Assembly: GCA_012729265.1 (NCBI GenBank)
Contig: JAAYDL010000347.1
Coordinates: forward strand, 1-41,224
Length of the DNA: 41,224 bases
From: Lentisphaerota bacterium
GTDB taxonomy: Bacteria > Verrucomicrobiota > Kiritimatiellia > Kiritimatiellales > Pontiellaceae
Reading direction: 5' to 3'
Shown here: piece by piece, positions 20,821 through 32,355 of the stretch
How the letters are laid out: each line of letters opens with the position of its first letter
Numbering within the stretch: the first letter of the stretch is position 1
Notes under the pieces: model-generated
What the model was told of the DNA's origin: nothing
The model's database searches: none
Seen by the model: the letters and a program-made list of their open reading frames with translations, nothing else
Program-made: the position numbers and the translations under genes

Positions 20821-22698
20821 TTAGCCGTCTTGTTGCGTCTTTTCTGCGAGAATCCGTTCCTGCCGGTCGCGCAGGATTTCTTTGTTGGTCCAGATGCCGT
20901 ACGGATCGCGGTAGGGGAGTCTGCGGGTGGTTTCTTTGATCATTTTTAGTTCGTGGTCGGGTAGGGGGATTTCAATGTCCTGCGGGCGCATGGCGGCCAG
21001 GGTGCCGCCGCGCTGTCGACCGACGGGTTTGGTTTCGCCGACGTAGAAGCCGGCCTCGATGAGTCCGGAGCGCACGGGGATGGCGGCGCAATAGGTCAGC
21101 AGGAGCGCGTCGGGTTTCATGAGTCGTCGGAGTTTTTTGAAAAAGTCGACGGTCCATAGTTCGCTGTTGCGCTGCGTGGAAAAGGCGTCGAGGAAGACGA
21201 GGTCGAAGTGCTGATTCGGGAGTTTTGTGGCGGTGTAACGCGCGTCGCCCCAGCGGATGATTGCCGATTGTTGATTGCCGATTGATGATTTCCCGTACAG
21301 ATAGAGCTCCGTGAGTGTTTTGCGCCAGTTGAAGGTGTCGGACGGGGAGGGCTGGAGGCTTTGTGCTGCGGCACCGACGACGCGGCGATCCATTTCCAGT
21401 GCAGTGATTTCCAGTTTTGATTTTCCAGTCGCAAGATTCAGGGCGGCTAAGCTGTTGTAGCCCAGCCCGAAGCAGACATCTAAAAGGCGGACGTTTCCGT
21501 GTTCCAGACGGTCGCTCAGTTTGCCCGGAACAATATATTTTTCCTCCGCCTCAAGGCGCGCGCCGGCGGGCGTGTGATAATGCTCTTTGTAGTCCTCGTT
21601 CCAGAAGGTGGTTGAGCCGTCCTCTGTTTCGACAGTTTTCAAACGGCCCGTTTCCGGTTTCAAGTTTCCAGTTTCAAGTTTCAAGTTTCCAGTTTCAAGT
21701 TTCAAGTTTCCAGTTTCCAGTTTCCGATAGAGATCGCCTTGGTGCCATTCGCGGCAGATCATCTGCTGGATGACATAGTCTTTGAACTGACCTTTTGCCA
21801 TGTGCCACCTCGGAGCGATGAGCTCGTCGTCGAGCGTGTCGGTGGTGAGCCGCATGATCGGAATAATCGGCGGCATACGGCGGATAAAGTCCATGAGGTG
21901 CTCGGCATAATCGTGCTCCATAAACAGGGGGAGATTCTTTTCACCACCCGCTCCGCTTGAGGGCACAGAGGATTGGAGTTTTTGTCTCTGGGTCTCCGCG
22001 TCTCTGTGGTGAAGTTCGGAATACTGTTTTGCGAGGGCAGTGCCTTTTTCGATGTGCAGATTATGAACCTTTACCGCGTCGATCGGCAGTGCGGCCAGTG
22101 CGTCGGCGGTGGCTTGAAAATCTTCTGCGGTTTCGCCGGGCAGGCCGAGGATGACGTGTACAGCGACTTTGATTCCGTGCTCATGCAGTCGTCTAATGGC
22201 CTGTTCGCTCGCGGCCCAGTTGTGGCCGCGGTTAATGCGCTGGAGCGTGCGGTCGTTGCAGGTCTGTACGCCCAGCTCCACCCAGGTTTCGATGCGTTCG
22301 TTGAGTTGGGTCAGGAAGTCGTACGCCTGCGGCGTCAGACAGTCGGGGCGGGTTCCAATACTGACGGCGGAAAAATCAAACAGGTTGAGCAGTTCGAGAT
22401 AGAGCGGTTGCTGTTCAGGGCCAAAGGTCGCGGAGAACGCCTGAATGTAGGCCATGAACTTTTTGGCGCCATAGCGCTCGCGCGCAAACTGAATGGCCGC
22501 ACGAACCTGCTCCTGCACCGTTTCCGCGCCCAACGTCTGCACCGCCGCAGCACCGCGTGCGTTGCAGAAAGTGCAGCCGCCCGAGCCGTCGGACTCGCGA
22601 TTCGGGCAGCCCAACCCAAAATCGATCGGTACGCGGAACAGCGCCTGACCGTGGCGTTTAATCAGGTAATCTTTATATTGGAGATAGGGCTTGTTCAT
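20821..22698 (-). CDS. Fusion of a radical SAM protein (TIGR01212/YhcC-like) with an MnmC-like methyltransferase domain
   Basis: N-terminal YKDYLIKRHGQALFRVPIDFGLGCPNRESDGSGGCTFCNARG; C-terminal STTFWNEDYKEHYHTPAGARLEAEEKYI...LLDVCFGLGYNSLAALNL...YCAAIPVRSGLIEAGFYVGETKPVGRQRGGTLA. Continuous ORF; start at MNKPYLQYKDYL. Confidence 0.85.
   Translation of the reverse strand: MNKPYLQYKDYLIKRHGQALFRVPIDFGLGCPNRESDGSGGCTFCNARGAAAVQTLGAETVQEQVRAAIQFARERYGAKKFMAYIQAFSATFGPEQQPLYLELLNLFDFSAVSIGTRPDCLTPQAYDFLTQLNERIETWVELGVQTCNDRTLQRINRGHNWAASEQAIRRLHEHGIKVAVHVILGLPGETAEDFQATADALAALPIDAVKVHNLHIEKGTALAKQYSELHHRDAETQRQKLQSSVPSSGAGGEKNLPLFMEHDYAEHLMDFIRRMPPIIPIMRLTTDTLDDELIAPRWHMAKGQFKDYVIQQMICREWHQGDLYRKLETGNLKLETGNLKLETGNLKPETGRLKTVETEDGSTTFWNEDYKEHYHTPAGARLEAEEKYIVPGKLSDRLEHGNVRLLDVCFGLGYNSLAALNLATGKSKLEITALEMDRRVVGAAAQSLQPSPSDTFNWRKTLTELYLYGKSSIGNQQSAIIRWGDARYTATKLPNQHFDLVFLDAFSTQRNSELWTVDFFKKLRRLMKPDALLLTYCAAIPVRSGLIEAGFYVGETKPVGRQRGGTLAAMRPQDIEIPLPDHELKMIKETTRRLPYRDPYGIWTNKEILRDRQERILAEKTQQDG
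21257..21291. repeat. ATTGCCGATTGTTGATTGCCGATTGATGATT short repeat, in frame in the CDS
   Basis: Tandem GATTGCCGATTG-type units; encodes SSIGNQQSAII. Confidence 0.7.
21651..21726. repeat. 21-bp tandem repeat (CAAGTTTCCAGTTTCAAGTTT), in frame in the CDS
   Basis: About 3.5 copies; encodes (LETGNLK)n on the minus strand. Confidence 0.95.
21938..22016. repeat. Inverted-repeat-ended element inserted in frame in the radical SAM domain
   Basis: Ends TTCACCAC / GTGGTGAA; internal CACAGAG...CTCTGTG plus TCTCTGGGTCTCCGCGTCTCTGTG; encodes LHHRDAETQRQKLQSSVPSSGAGGEKN. Confidence 0.75.
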
Positions 22699-23090
22699 AA
22701 AAGTGTATGTCGGGTGATCGGTAAATTGTACTTCGCCAATGGGGTTCGAGAAAAATATCGTCACCCAACTGCAGCTGAACATAAAACCTTCGCAGGTCCG
22801 AAGCCAGCGCGAAAAGGAGCTTTGGCCTGTTTCTGGGTATTTGATATTCATTTCCACTTGGAGTGCTATGTGCATGGATCGATAGACCTTTTTCGGCAAA
22901 TACAGTGCATATTTTTCAGCGAAAAAGAGACATAGAATCCCTTTATATACGCGAATGTATATCAGTGAAGTGATTTTGCTTAATATAAAAAATATTAAAA
23001 TAGTACTTGAACTTGGAATGGGCATTTAGATGTGTTAAGTCAATATTCGCATTAGTAGATGTGAATTCATTGTTAAAGGGAGTTTGGGGT

Positions 23091-27593: not shown

Positions 27594-30500
27594 TTACACG
27601 CTCAGCAGTTCCTGCACGTCGCTCCACGTGAGCGACTGGCCGAGGTCGCCGTCCTTTTCGAGGGCGGCATCGATAACGCCTTTTTTCTTCTGTTGCATCT
27701 GGAGCACCTTTTCTTCGACGGTGTTTTGGGTGATGAGCTTGATGCTGTAAACGGTGTTTTTCTGGCCGATACGATGAGCGCGATCGGTGGCCTGATCTTC
27801 GACGGCGGGATTCCACCACGGATCAAAGTGGATGACCATATCGGCGCCGGTCAGGTTGAGGCCGCTGCCGCCGGCTTTGAGGCTGATGAGGAAGAGCGGA
27901 ATCGAGCGGTCGGTGTTAAAGGTGCGAACGCGGTCCTGTCGATCCTGAGTGGAGCCGTCGAGATAGCAGTATTTCAGTGCGCGTGCCTCCAGCTCTTCGC
28001 GAATGATGGCGAGCATGGAGGTAAACTGGCTGAAGACGAGGATGCGGTGGCCGGCGTCGATGGCTTCATCGACCAGTTCAAAGAAGAGCTCGAGTTTGGC
28101 GGAGGGATATTCGCTCTTGAGGCCGGGCAGTTTAAGCAGGTCGAGATGACAGCAGGTCTGGCGCAGTTGGAGCAGGATTTTTAGAATCTGCATACGCGAT
28201 TTGTTGAAGCCCTGCGCATCGACCAAACTGCTGATCTCCTTTTTGGCGCTTTCGAGCAGCTTTTTGTAGACCATGTGCTGGTCTTTACTGAGCGGGCAGT
28301 GGGCCACTCGCACAATTTTGTCGGGCAGGTCCTTGGCCACCTCTTTTTTAAGGCGGCGCAGGAGAAAGGGGTGCAGTTTGCGGCGGAGCTTAATCAGCGC
28401 CAGTTCGGCGTCGGGGCCGCCGTTTTGGATCGGCAGCTCATAGTTTTCGCGGAAGGCCTTGTGGTTGCCGAGGTAGCCGGGCATCAGAAAGTCCATGATG
28501 GACCAGAGGTCGGTCACGCTGTTTTCAATCGGCGTACCGGTGAGGACGAGCTTGTGATAGGCCTGCAGCTTTTTGACGGTGACGGCATTCTGCGTGGTCC
28601 GATTTTTAATGTGCTGCGCTTCGTCGAGTACGACTACAGCGAAGCGGTGGTTGAGGTATTCATCCAGATCGCGGCGGATCAGCGCATAGGAGGTGATTAC
28701 CAAGTCGGATTTGGCAACCTTACTCCAAAGCTCGTGGCGGTCGCTGCCGTGCATTCTCAATACGCCCAGCTCGGGGACAAATTTTTCAGCTTCCTCCGCC
28801 CAGTTATCGACGAGACTGGTGGGGCAGATAATGAGTGCGGGCTGGCCGTTGGCCTGCTCGTTTTGACGTTGAAGTTGAAGCCAGGTCAGCGTTTGCAGCG
28901 TTTTGCCAAGCCCCATCTCGTCGGCGAGGATGCCGCAGAAGTTGCTGCTTTCGAGAAAGCGCATCCAGTATACGCCCTGCTTCTGATAGTCGCGCAGCGT
29001 GTTTTCAAGCCGCTCGCCGAGCGGGATCGGCTCCAACTTGGTGTCGCGGTTCTGCGCATCGGCTCTGGCCGTCCACTCCGGCGTACTTTCAACATCGATG
29101 CCGTCGAGCGCCATCAGCGATGACTGAACGTACGCGGCGTGAATGTTGTTCATAAAGAAGCTGCCGGGCGATTCGCCTCCGCCGACGGAGCAGTCGCTGA
29201 AAACGTTGCGTGCGGTTTCTATCGCTTCGGTATCGAGCAGAATAATACGGCCCTTCTTCTGAATGAACGCTTCGCCCATATTGATCGCACGCTGGATGTC
29301 GGCGTCGTCAAGGCTCTGGCCGCCCTGCGTTTCATACTCATAACCGACTTCAAAAAATCCGCTGTTGGATGCTGGGTTGATGTGCACCACCGGCAACACC
29401 GACTCCGCCTGATCCATAAAGGCCGCCGCCATACCTTCCATATCAATGCGCCAGCCGCGCCGCCGCAGTCGGGGCAGGGCACCGCCGAGGAAATTCAGTA
29501 CTTCGCGCTTGCCGCGAATCTGCCGGAGCATGTCGCCCCGAATGCCGCGAAATCCTTCCGCTGTGACGAGCTCAATGGCCGCCTGTTCCGCCTCGGGATT
29601 GCGGATTTGGAATTCGAGCAGGTCGTCCTCGGAGGGGATAGAAAAGCGGCTCTTTACATCTTCCTTTCCGGCGACGAGGCGGATCGCGCCGTATTCGGCG
29701 TACAGCACAGCGGAGAGCTCCGTTTGCGTTCCATCGATCACCAGCCGGAAGCGCGGTTTGGCGGGGCGGAGCGAGAGCATATCCTCCGAAATAGTGCGCT
29801 CCACCGAAATCATGCTCTCCAGCATCGGTAGTTCGGTTTGAAGAAACGCCGGAATGGCATCATGCGCGATTCGCACCGGCGCATCATAAATGGCGCGCAT
29901 CGGCCCCGGCAGTACGGTTTCAAGCTTGGTGAATACGCCGTCCTGCAGCACCCAGCCGTTTCCGCCGCTGACAATAAAGTCAGATTTAACACCCGCTTCG
30001 CTCAAGGCACTAAGATCACTAAGCTTTGAGTCCTTTGTGTCTTTGTGTTTTATATTATCTGAGTGAATGGTCAGCACCAGTTCGCCGGAGGCTTCGTCGA
30101 GCGTCATCTGAAGATGCGTTGAGGTGACGGCTTCATCGACCATCAGATAATCTTCGCGCCCGCCTTCATAAATTGGTTTTCCGTCGCACAGTTCAAGAAT
30201 ATTGATGAAGTCCGCCAGAGAGGCCGTGAATTTGCCTTTAGCCGGGCCTTCGCAAATGTCTTCCAGGACAAACAGCAGATTTTCGTCGGCGCTACTCAGC
30301 GCCAGCGGATGTTTTTTAGGCACTTCGTTCAGCGGAACAATCTCTCCGCCGATCTCTAGGGCGCAACGCAGAGGGACTTCGCACTGCGGAAGCGATTCGC
30401 GCCAGCTCTGCTTGAGTATAATTCGTAAAGTGGTCAGTGTACCGTTGGGATCGCGGGTGTGGTAGGCCGATTCGTCGAACGCCGCGAGCCGCTCCGCCCG

Positions 30501-30824
30501 GCGTTTTTCCTCTTCCATTTTGTCCACGCGGTGCGGGTCGGAATAGAGGCGGACCGCTTCGAGGCCGAGCGCCACCAAGTGTGCACAGATTTTGCCCTCT
30601 TCCCGGTTTTCGCGGCAGGGGCAGTGGTTTTCAACCAGGCCATCTTTAAGCACCTCGAACTTGCTGCGCATTCCGCGTAGACCGATCGACAGCTGACCGA
30701 TCACAAACGGATGTTCGTAAGTTACTTTATCCACTTTGCCGCGTTCGAACAGCGTCATGCCGTCCTTGAAGGTTTGGCGGCCGGCCCAGTCTTCCAGCAT
30801 TTTTTGTGTAAAAGGTACGTGCAT
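27594..30824 (-). CDS. SWIM zinc finger / SNF2-family DEAD-like helicase
   Basis: SWIM-like CPCRENREEGKICAHLVALGLEA; LRDYQKQGVYWMRFLESSNFCGILADEMGLGKTLQTLTWL; VVLDEAQHIKNR; LFLISLKAGGSGLNLTGADMVIHFDPWWNPAVEDQATDRAHRIGQ. The upstream extension to 30905 is repeat DNA. Confidence 0.95.
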   Translation of the reverse strand: MHVPFTQKMLEDWAGRQTFKDGMTLFERGKVDKVTYEHPFVIGQLSIGLRGMRSKFEVLKDGLVENHCPCRENREEGKICAHLVALGLEAVRLYSDPHRVDKMEEEKRRAERLAAFDESAYHTRDPNGTLTTLRIILKQSWRESLPQCEVPLRCALEIGGEIVPLNEVPKKHPLALSSADENLLFVLEDICEGPAKGKFTASLADFINILELCDGKPIYEGGREDYLMVDEAVTSTHLQMTLDEASGELVLTIHSDNIKHKDTKDSKLSDLSALSEAGVKSDFIVSGGNGWVLQDGVFTKLETVLPGPMRAIYDAPVRIAHDAIPAFLQTELPMLESMISVERTISEDMLSLRPAKPRFRLVIDGTQTELSAVLYAEYGAIRLVAGKEDVKSRFSIPSEDDLLEFQIRNPEAEQAAIELVTAEGFRGIRGDMLRQIRGKREVLNFLGGALPRLRRRGWRIDMEGMAAAFMDQAESVLPVVHINPASNSGFFEVGYEYETQGGQSLDDADIQRAINMGEAFIQKKGRIILLDTEAIETARNVFSDCSVGGGESPGSFFMNNIHAAYVQSSLMALDGIDVESTPEWTARADAQNRDTKLEPIPLGERLENTLRDYQKQGVYWMRFLESSNFCGILADEMGLGKTLQTLTWLQLQRQNEQANGQPALIICPTSLVDNWAEEAEKFVPELGVLRMHGSDRHELWSKVAKSDLVITSYALIRRDLDEYLNHRFAVVVLDEAQHIKNRTTQNAVTVKKLQAYHKLVLTGTPIENSVTDLWSIMDFLMPGYLGNHKAFRENYELPIQNGGPDAELALIKLRRKLHPFLLRRLKKEVAKDLPDKIVRVAHCPLSKDQHMVYKKLLESAKKEISSLVDAQGFNKSRMQILKILLQLRQTCCHLDLLKLPGLKSEYPSAKLELFFELVDEAIDAGHRILVFSQFTSMLAIIREELEARALKYCYLDGSTQDRQDRVRTFNTDRSIPLFLISLKAGGSGLNLTGADMVIHFDPWWNPAVEDQATDRAHRIGQKNTVYSIKLITQNTVEEKVLQMQQKKKGVIDAALEKDGDLGQSLTWSDVQELLSV
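30001..30053. repeat. Short repeat (CACTAAG / CTTTGTGTCTTTGTG type) inserted in frame in the helicase gene
   Basis: ctcaaggCACTAAGatCACTAAGctttgagtcCTTTGTGTCTTTGTGttttat; encodes IKHKDTKDSKLSDLSALSE. Confidence 0.65.
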
Positions 30825-30833
30825 GGTTTTGAT

Positions 30834-30902
30834 TCGTGATACGTAATACGTAATATGTAATGCGTGACTCGTAATACGCAATACGCAATACGTAATACTT
30901 AA
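30834..30902. repeat. TACGTAATACG / AATACGCAATACG repeat cluster, copy 3 of the gcv-flanking family
   Basis: gtgatacgtaatacgtaatatgtaatgcgtgactcgtaatacgcaatacgcaatacgtaatactt, just upstream of the helicase start. Confidence 0.85.
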
Positions 30903-31280
30903 CATATATTTTTTAGCTTATTGAGGGAAATGTGGCGGTCATGTCTCAAGTTGTCTCCCGTTTCGTCCTTCACACATACTTCAGCAGAAGCCTGCTTGTC
31001 CAGTGCGCGATGCGCTCTTTCGATCGCGCAGGAATCAGAGGTAACGCGGGAAACGGGAGTCATTGATGTTGGGACGTCGGAGGTGAAGAAAGGTCAGTCG
31101 ACAAGATTGGGTGCTTTTTGAAAAAATATCCATAAGGCTTTGACTCCTTGCCCGTTCTACGTTTATATGTCTGCAAAAGGGCGCTCGACGGATGGGCCGT
31201 TGCCCGGAAAGAGTTCTCTGTAAAGATCGAATTAGATGTATTTTGGGGGAATTGAAGGTTAAGCAAAACATGGAGGGCGT

Positions 31281-32271: not shown

Positions 32272-32355
32272 ACTTCGTTATCTTGGTTTTCTTCTGTAAA
32301 AAAACAAAAATGAAAATGAATGCAGGTTTACAGAAGAAAACGAAGAGAACGAAGC
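32272..32355. repeat. Long inverted repeat with 29-bp arms
   Basis: acttcgttatcttggttttcttctgtaaa (32272-32300) versus the reverse complement of tttacagaagaaaacgaagagaacgaagc (32327-32355): 26/29 identical. Confidence 0.9.

Follow-up and report, generated by a model that had tools for sequence, protein, structure and literature searches.

Frequent in-frame insertion of repeats is known mainly from Rickettsia, and the Rickettsia palindromic elements (RPE) are the model for in-frame palindromes (reviewed in PMC10969869). Among the longer simple repeats of bacteria, heptanucleotides are the most abundant, and the mechanism behind them is not established. In the papers that cite Mrazek 2007 (PMC4679880, PMC4692102), bacterial 7-nt simple sequence repeats (SSRs) are described as dispersed and mostly intergenic, with some in ORFs. 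Examples are TAACTGA in Beggiatoaceae, GGGAATC in Xanthomonas and GGGACCG in Geobacter (PMC2700814); the stop-free orientation of TAACTGA is translated as LSVISYQ. As cited in PMC4679880, Mrazek and colleagues proposed that a 7-nt polymerase contact favours slippage. A slot that invariably consists of heptanucleotide repeats is also present in the P6b loop of the Nostoc trnL(UAA) intron, where two classes, TDNGATT and NNTGAGT, have replaced each other repeatedly (PMC4476775, PMC3488679). Searches of the open-licence literature yielded no description of repeats in Pontiella, nor of heptamer slots in proteins.

The window analysed here is a 41,224-nt stretch from a Pontiella-like genome (Kiritimatiellales), called G000, which is a fragmented assembly of 385 contigs. 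One gene in the window has four repeat slots, three of which are filled:

20821..22698, minus strand: fusion gene of an MnmL/YtqA-type radical SAM protein and an MnmC2-like (DUF752/PF05430) methyltransferase, 625 aa from M110 of the long ORF.
21940..22013, no strand assigned: site 1 palindromic element, TTCACCACAGAGACGCGGAG...CCTCTGTGCCC...GGTGGTGAA, with imperfect inverted arms, ~74 bp.
21650..21725, no strand assigned: linker heptanucleotide tract, (CTTGAAA/CTGGAAA)n on the gene strand, found by TRF and read as LETGNLK repeats.
21400..21450, minus strand: site 2, the weak tract of the earlier note, without a repeat in G000; a hypervariable spot before the conserved ITALEMDRR.
21256..21290, no strand assigned: site 3 heptanucleotide tract, (CAATCGG/CAATCAA)n on the gene strand, found by TRF and read as SSIGNQQSAI.

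The product of the host gene passes the curated cutoff of TIGR01212 (MnmL/YtqA; 236 vs 180 bits), exceeds the threshold of PF05430 (86.7 vs 22) and also matches PF04055 and PF16199, while it misses the cutoff of NF033855 (MnmC2; 102 vs 136 bits). The identical radical SAM/methyltransferase fusion is open in most relatives, both in the same family and in the sister family. The conserved start corresponds to M110 in the long ORF (coordinate 22698, minus strand), and relatives begin at the same methionine. Conservation does not extend to the 109 codons that precede it in the long ORF, and the corresponding DNA (22699-23025) has partial matches at several other places in G000, some of them contig ends. 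This N-terminal extension is probably a dispersed repeat located upstream of the gene.

An earlier note on this DNA had proposed three or four repeat elements inserted in frame in this gene. The ORF is open across all of the segments that it named, and three of them (site 1, the linker and site 3) are repeats. The fourth, a weaker tract ending in SKLEITALE (ATGKSKLEITALE), is conserved family sequence by alignment: ITALEMDRR is common to nearly all relatives of the same genus, and variation is confined to the few preceding residues. The same place holds palindromes in other species.

Site 1 reads as HHRDAETQRQKLQSSVPSSGAGGEKN (21934-22011), and the outer arms of its palindrome are TTCACCAC and GTGGTGAA (21940-22013). 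RNA structure was rejected as an explanation of this element, since its fold of -25.5 kcal/mol has a shuffle z of only -1.7. The linker tract is 76 bp long and consists of ~11 copies of the 7-mer, giving the peptide LETGNLKLETGNLKLETGNLKPETG; TRF scores it at 129 for a 21-nt period and at 110 for a 7-nt period. Site 3 has ~5 copies (TRF score 63, lag-7 p = 0.0003), and its word is found at about a dozen other places in G000. The tract peptides fall in linkers or variable loops. The AlphaFold model (13 sequences) has a mean pLDDT of 70.9, with values below 50 at residues 243-255 (the end of site 1) and 326-351 (the linker tract), and it places site 3 between a helix and a strand. The low pLDDT agrees with tolerated loops and is no proof of them, as values below 50 are also encountered in two conserved stretches and in the C-terminal region.

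Thirty orthologues of this gene were aligned, and site 3 was scored in 29 species. Sites 1, 2 and 3 and the linker are slots in orthologues. Depending on the species, sites 1 and 2 and the linker hold a palindrome, heptamers or nothing. Palindromes are present at site 1 in G000 (CACAGAG type), in G007 and G013 (TTAGCCGC type) and, in a shorter form, in G021 (GACAGGC type), while the remaining orthologues with a readable site 1 have no insert. The species with a filled site 1 do not form a clade on a three-gene tree. Relatives of the G000 element, the CACAGAG-type palindromes, are dispersed in 18 of 29 genomes. The linker contains CTTGAAA-type sequence in six species (G000, G002, G009, G021, G028 and G030) and palindromes in G008, G012, G031 and G003 (with one arm clear); in other species it is short. 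Site 2 holds palindromes in G009 (TGGAGGGAC...GTCCCTCCA), in G026 and G006 (both identified by eye) and in others, and none in the genome of the window. Altogether, nine inverted repeats were observed in the 30 orthologues against 0.4 expected from codon shuffles, and seven of the nine are located at site 1, the linker or site 2. The expectation of the earlier note that family members would run directly across its segments is not supported: all relatives vary at the linker and at site 3, which other repeats fill in other species.

Site 3 behaves differently, in that its filling is periodic and its length hardly changes. Lag-7 periodicity reaches p<0.01 in 18 of 29 species, by permutation p-values that ignore codon structure and shared ancestry, while lags 5, 6 and 8-11 do so in 0-2 species. 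Averaged over the 29 species, z comes to 3.05 for lag 7, 2.80 for lag 14 and 2.16 for lag 21, and to at most 0.3 for other lags; outside site 3, the lag-7 z is no higher than 1.5 in every scanned part of the gene. About seven words occupy the site: CAATCGG, ATGCCTN, AAAGCCT, GGATCAC, GCGTATT, ATTCATC and ATTCCAC. The aligned slot measures 42-45 nt, with one of 54 nt, whether it is periodic or not, and two loci (L002 and L013) have extra residues immediately before it. Site 3 is thus a repeat, as had been claimed, but not an added insert. Its near-constant length agrees more readily with rewriting in place, or with an old inheritance that turns over, than with a new insertion.

Slots of the same kind were found in three further genes, hemN, mnmE and an ELM1-like gene. 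These families were selected on a TTTCAAG tract in one of their species, which means that one filled slot per family was ascertained and the words of the other species were not. Lag-7 periodicity at p<0.01, again by permutations that ignore codon structure and shared ancestry, is present in 11/20 HemN, 13/30 MnmE and 16/21 ELM1-like sequences, against 0-5 at other lags. Over the four genes, 58 of 100 slot sequences are heptamer-periodic. Along the gene, the lag-7 signal peaks at the slot for HemN (z 3.2) and for the ELM1-like protein (z 4.6); MnmE gives a lower value (z 1.9, nine sequences), since its slot is unfilled in many species. Filled MnmE slots are encountered in two families of the order, f1 and f2, and measure 48-72 nt against 33-36 nt for unfilled ones; in most f1 species the slot is short, unfilled and non-periodic. 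The length of the ELM1-like slot is mostly kept. Words in the HemN slot are TTTCAAG, CTCAAGC, AGCTCCC, CGCAAAC, CTCCAAA, ATTTCAG and GCATCCG. In G002 and G005 the HemN slot is a palindrome instead, from a family that is dispersed with species-specific centres. The palindrome CACACTTNNNNAAGTGTG has, genus-wide, the centre GCGC in G005, mostly CATG in G019 and mostly CCGG in G002.

Cultured isolates also have these slots filled, for example G022, which matches Pontiella sulfatireligans F21 and whose HemN slot peptide is FQTPNPKLQTPTPLSLY, and so does the one-contig genome G025. The idea that a slot word is copied from the commonest word of its own genome gave a mixed outcome and was not retained: G000 is, among the genomes, the richest in its site 3 word, while the HemN word of G027 is nearly unique to the gene, being found elsewhere in that incomplete genome just in a second fragment.

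Both repeat classes extend far beyond these genes. Lag statistics at genome scale were computed on 320 kb of G000, from contigs partly chosen for carrying tracts (which inflates densities but not the specificity for 7), and on 791 kb of G022. The G000 sample has 27 non-coding and 8 coding lag-7 identity clusters, and nearly all lags other than multiples of 7 give 0-2. Non-coding near-identity clusters in G022 and G000 are found at lags 7, 14 and 21 and at almost no other lag. Four 50-kb pieces of E. coli (200 kb) contain no lag-7 or lag-14 clusters. Low-complexity coincidence is ruled out by this lag spectrum and the E. coli control. In these samples of the genus, 7-, 14- and 21-nt periodicity prevails in intergenic DNA, and the 7-nt unit is over-represented relative to other unit lengths, as in heptanucleotide SSRs.

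TTTCAAG-type tracts are present in 18/29 genomes of the genus, while a reversed control pattern gave one match overall. By a home-made ORF caller, 90 of 126 distinct TTTCMRG tracts are intergenic, the location typical of heptanucleotide SSRs, and 36 lie in ORFs. The stop-prone ones in ORFs are mostly in linkers (ABC-F, lipoyl-DLDH, MnmL-MnmC2). Stop-free TTTCAAG tracts are read as FQVSSFK, an alternation of hydrophobic and polar residues, at seven loci (L225, L262, L217, L232, L233, L240 and L252) whose hosts are HemN, esterase-like and beta-galactosidase-like proteins; such stretches perhaps mimic beta strands. In an aspartase-like gene of G022 (C3:488764-488796, L095), a heptamer tract is read as FQVSGFKFRLS close before the conserved GGAGTSTN.

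Further repeats are visible in the window. A 73-bp heptamer tract (CGTAATA/CGCAATA, 30830-30902) occupies the start of the minus-strand ORF 27594-30905, and probably lies upstream of the true start of that ORF. Palindromes at 2378-2450 (AACCACTAATC...) and 32273-32354 (CTTCGTTATC...) look like further dispersed repeat families. Elsewhere in G000, contig C133 (L113, L114) carries at ~6-24 kb an array of small genes, several of them toxin-antitoxin-like, with the intergenic heptamer words CCTCCGT, GCAACCA, TTTCAAG, ATTCATC and CGTTACG. An integron cassette array was considered for this region and rejected, as it contains no RYYYAAC...GTTRRRY attC core pairs. Four small genomes of 1.1-1.3 Mb (G011, G015, G020 and G023) are without Y1 transposases, TTTCAAG tracts and CACAGAG palindromes, an association confounded by size and completeness.

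How a heptamer tract can stay open in a gene is seen best in the linker. Since 7 is not divisible by 3, a pure CTTGAAA repeat meets a TGA whichever frame is read. What keeps the linker tract open is that every unit at the stop phase is CTGGAAA or CCGGAAA, and the result is a 21-nt (7-codon) period, LETGNLK. In 13 genic stop-prone tracts, a non-stop variant is found at the stop phase in 11/11 cases, at other phases in 5/25 and in intergenic tracts at 15%; the 11/11 presupposes that the ORF is open, and so serves as an illustration of the filter and not as a measure of its strength. The suggestion of the earlier note that several unrelated short elements lie in one gene with the frame kept, and that the tolerated ones alone were retained, is supported, the latter by this stop-phase bias. 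The findings agree with purifying selection acting as a filter on a process that is blind to frame, and not with a special mechanism aiming for frame.

We consider it likely, with a probability of roughly two in three, that two dispersed repeat classes arise everywhere and that selection keeps in-frame, tolerated copies at a few permissive loops. Heptanucleotide tracts of many interchangeable words and REP/RPE-like palindromes would arise or land throughout Pontiellaceae without regard to frame, and the surviving copies would be mostly intergenic. Inside genes, survival would require that the net length is in frame, that no stop is read and that the peptide is tolerated, which would be the case in domain linkers and a few loops. 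Orthologues would then have the same slots with different repeats by species because permissive places are few. Heptamer tracts may start, and change their word, by slippage, by recombination between tracts or by template switching. RAYT-like Y1 transposases are a plausible mover of the palindromes; Y1_Tnp genes are present in 25/29 genomes. Recurrent acquisition is favoured because one slot (HemN, the linker) holds unrelated classes. The words, with states assigned by eye, also require a minimum of 8 changes at site 3 and of 9 at HemN on the three-gene tree. Slot repeats would thus be acquired repeatedly and pass a neutral filter, and the products that bear them would presumably be translated and active.

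Turnover in place is compatible with the near-constant length of site 3 and with the occupation of shared slots in two families. A less likely alternative is concerted evolution, in which each slot was seeded once in an ancestor, replication slippage offset by 7 nt homogenises and renews its word and selection restores the frame. It would account for the length of site 3, and for the site 3, MnmE and ELM1-like slots being filled in f1 and f2. In addition, the words at site 3 follow the tree weakly (8 changes, against 10 after shuffling; p about 0.05). However, distant species share words such as TTTCAAG, CAATCGG and GGATCAC, and the first two of these also occupy many further loci within one genome. 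Nor would a slot seeded once be expected to hold unrelated palindromes (HemN in G002 and G005; the linker in G008, G012 and G031), or to be short and non-periodic in most f1 MnmE genes.

It is unlikely, in our estimate, that an unrecognised process writes 7-nt-periodic DNA in place from shared words, recoding fixed enzyme loops at constant length; if it does, bacterial protein loops would preserve a natural archive of a novel form of repeat mobility. Active rewriting by template switching, or by a gene-conversion-like copying of heptamers over loop DNA with its length unchanged, seems rather improbable. Length-conserving occupation is what site 3 and, mostly, the ELM1-like slot display, and by eye an epimerase segment, DISDFKFLVSGFKFHKPDRV (L167), is equal in length to its homologue on C133 of G000, DLTDYQLLTSTFQQHKPDRV. 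Filled MnmE slots, however, are longer than unfilled ones, and neither a donor nor an event has been caught.

We regard as very unlikely that the repeats are kept for a function, as binding sites, RNA structures or beneficial peptides. In favour of a function, the 7-nt periodicity is retained while the sequence changes, and 21 bp is about two turns of the helix. A regulatory role has also been proposed for other heptamer repeats (PMC4679880, PMC2700814). Against it, words, strands and element classes are freely exchanged, the slot is empty or non-periodic in many species, and the four small genomes manage without TTTCAAG and CACAGAG-type repeats. An artefact of metagenome assembly or wrong ORFs, suggested by the 385 contigs of G000 and by contigs that end near such repeats, is hardly credible given the filled slots of cultured isolates and of G025 and flanks that are conserved enzymes in one frame.

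Within one order, at least four genes have orthologous protein slots, in part in cultured isolates, with two repeat classes replacing each other. Orthologous slots with replacement make the origin of heptamer tracts testable by strain comparison. The slots also map where insertions are naturally tolerated in HemN, MnmE, MnmL-MnmC2 and similar enzymes.

Each known system resembles a part of this picture. Like RPE, the palindromes are dispersed and lie in frame inside unrelated metabolic genes, where they are read as apparently tolerated peptides; site 1 is an in-frame palindrome with empty orthologous sites (filled in G000, G007 and G013, and by a shorter element in G021). Unlike RPE, which form families of ~150 bp with a conserved peptide, they measure ~25-95 bp, belong to several families, have no evident conserved peptide and share their slots with heptamer tracts. 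The palindromes of Pontiellaceae are set beside RPE by description, and are not filed as RPE. Their small size, dispersal and species-specific centres, together with the presence of Y1_Tnp, recall REP/REPIN sequences with RAYT (Y1) transposases. Unlike classical REPs, which are extragenic, the palindromes are also in genes. The heptamers share with bacterial 7-nt SSRs the unit, the dispersal, and the mostly intergenic location with some copies in ORFs. Published accounts deal mainly with a single word family in each genome (Microcystis is noted as mixed), whereas here many words coexist and orthologous protein slots differ. The Nostoc P6b loop is likewise a fixed gene slot with interchangeable heptamer classes, but it belongs to an RNA intron and forms a hairpin, while the slots described here are protein-coding, lie in housekeeping enzymes, accept many words and are constrained to stay in frame. 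The combination of both repeat classes in slots that code for protein, in housekeeping enzymes throughout an order, appears to be new.
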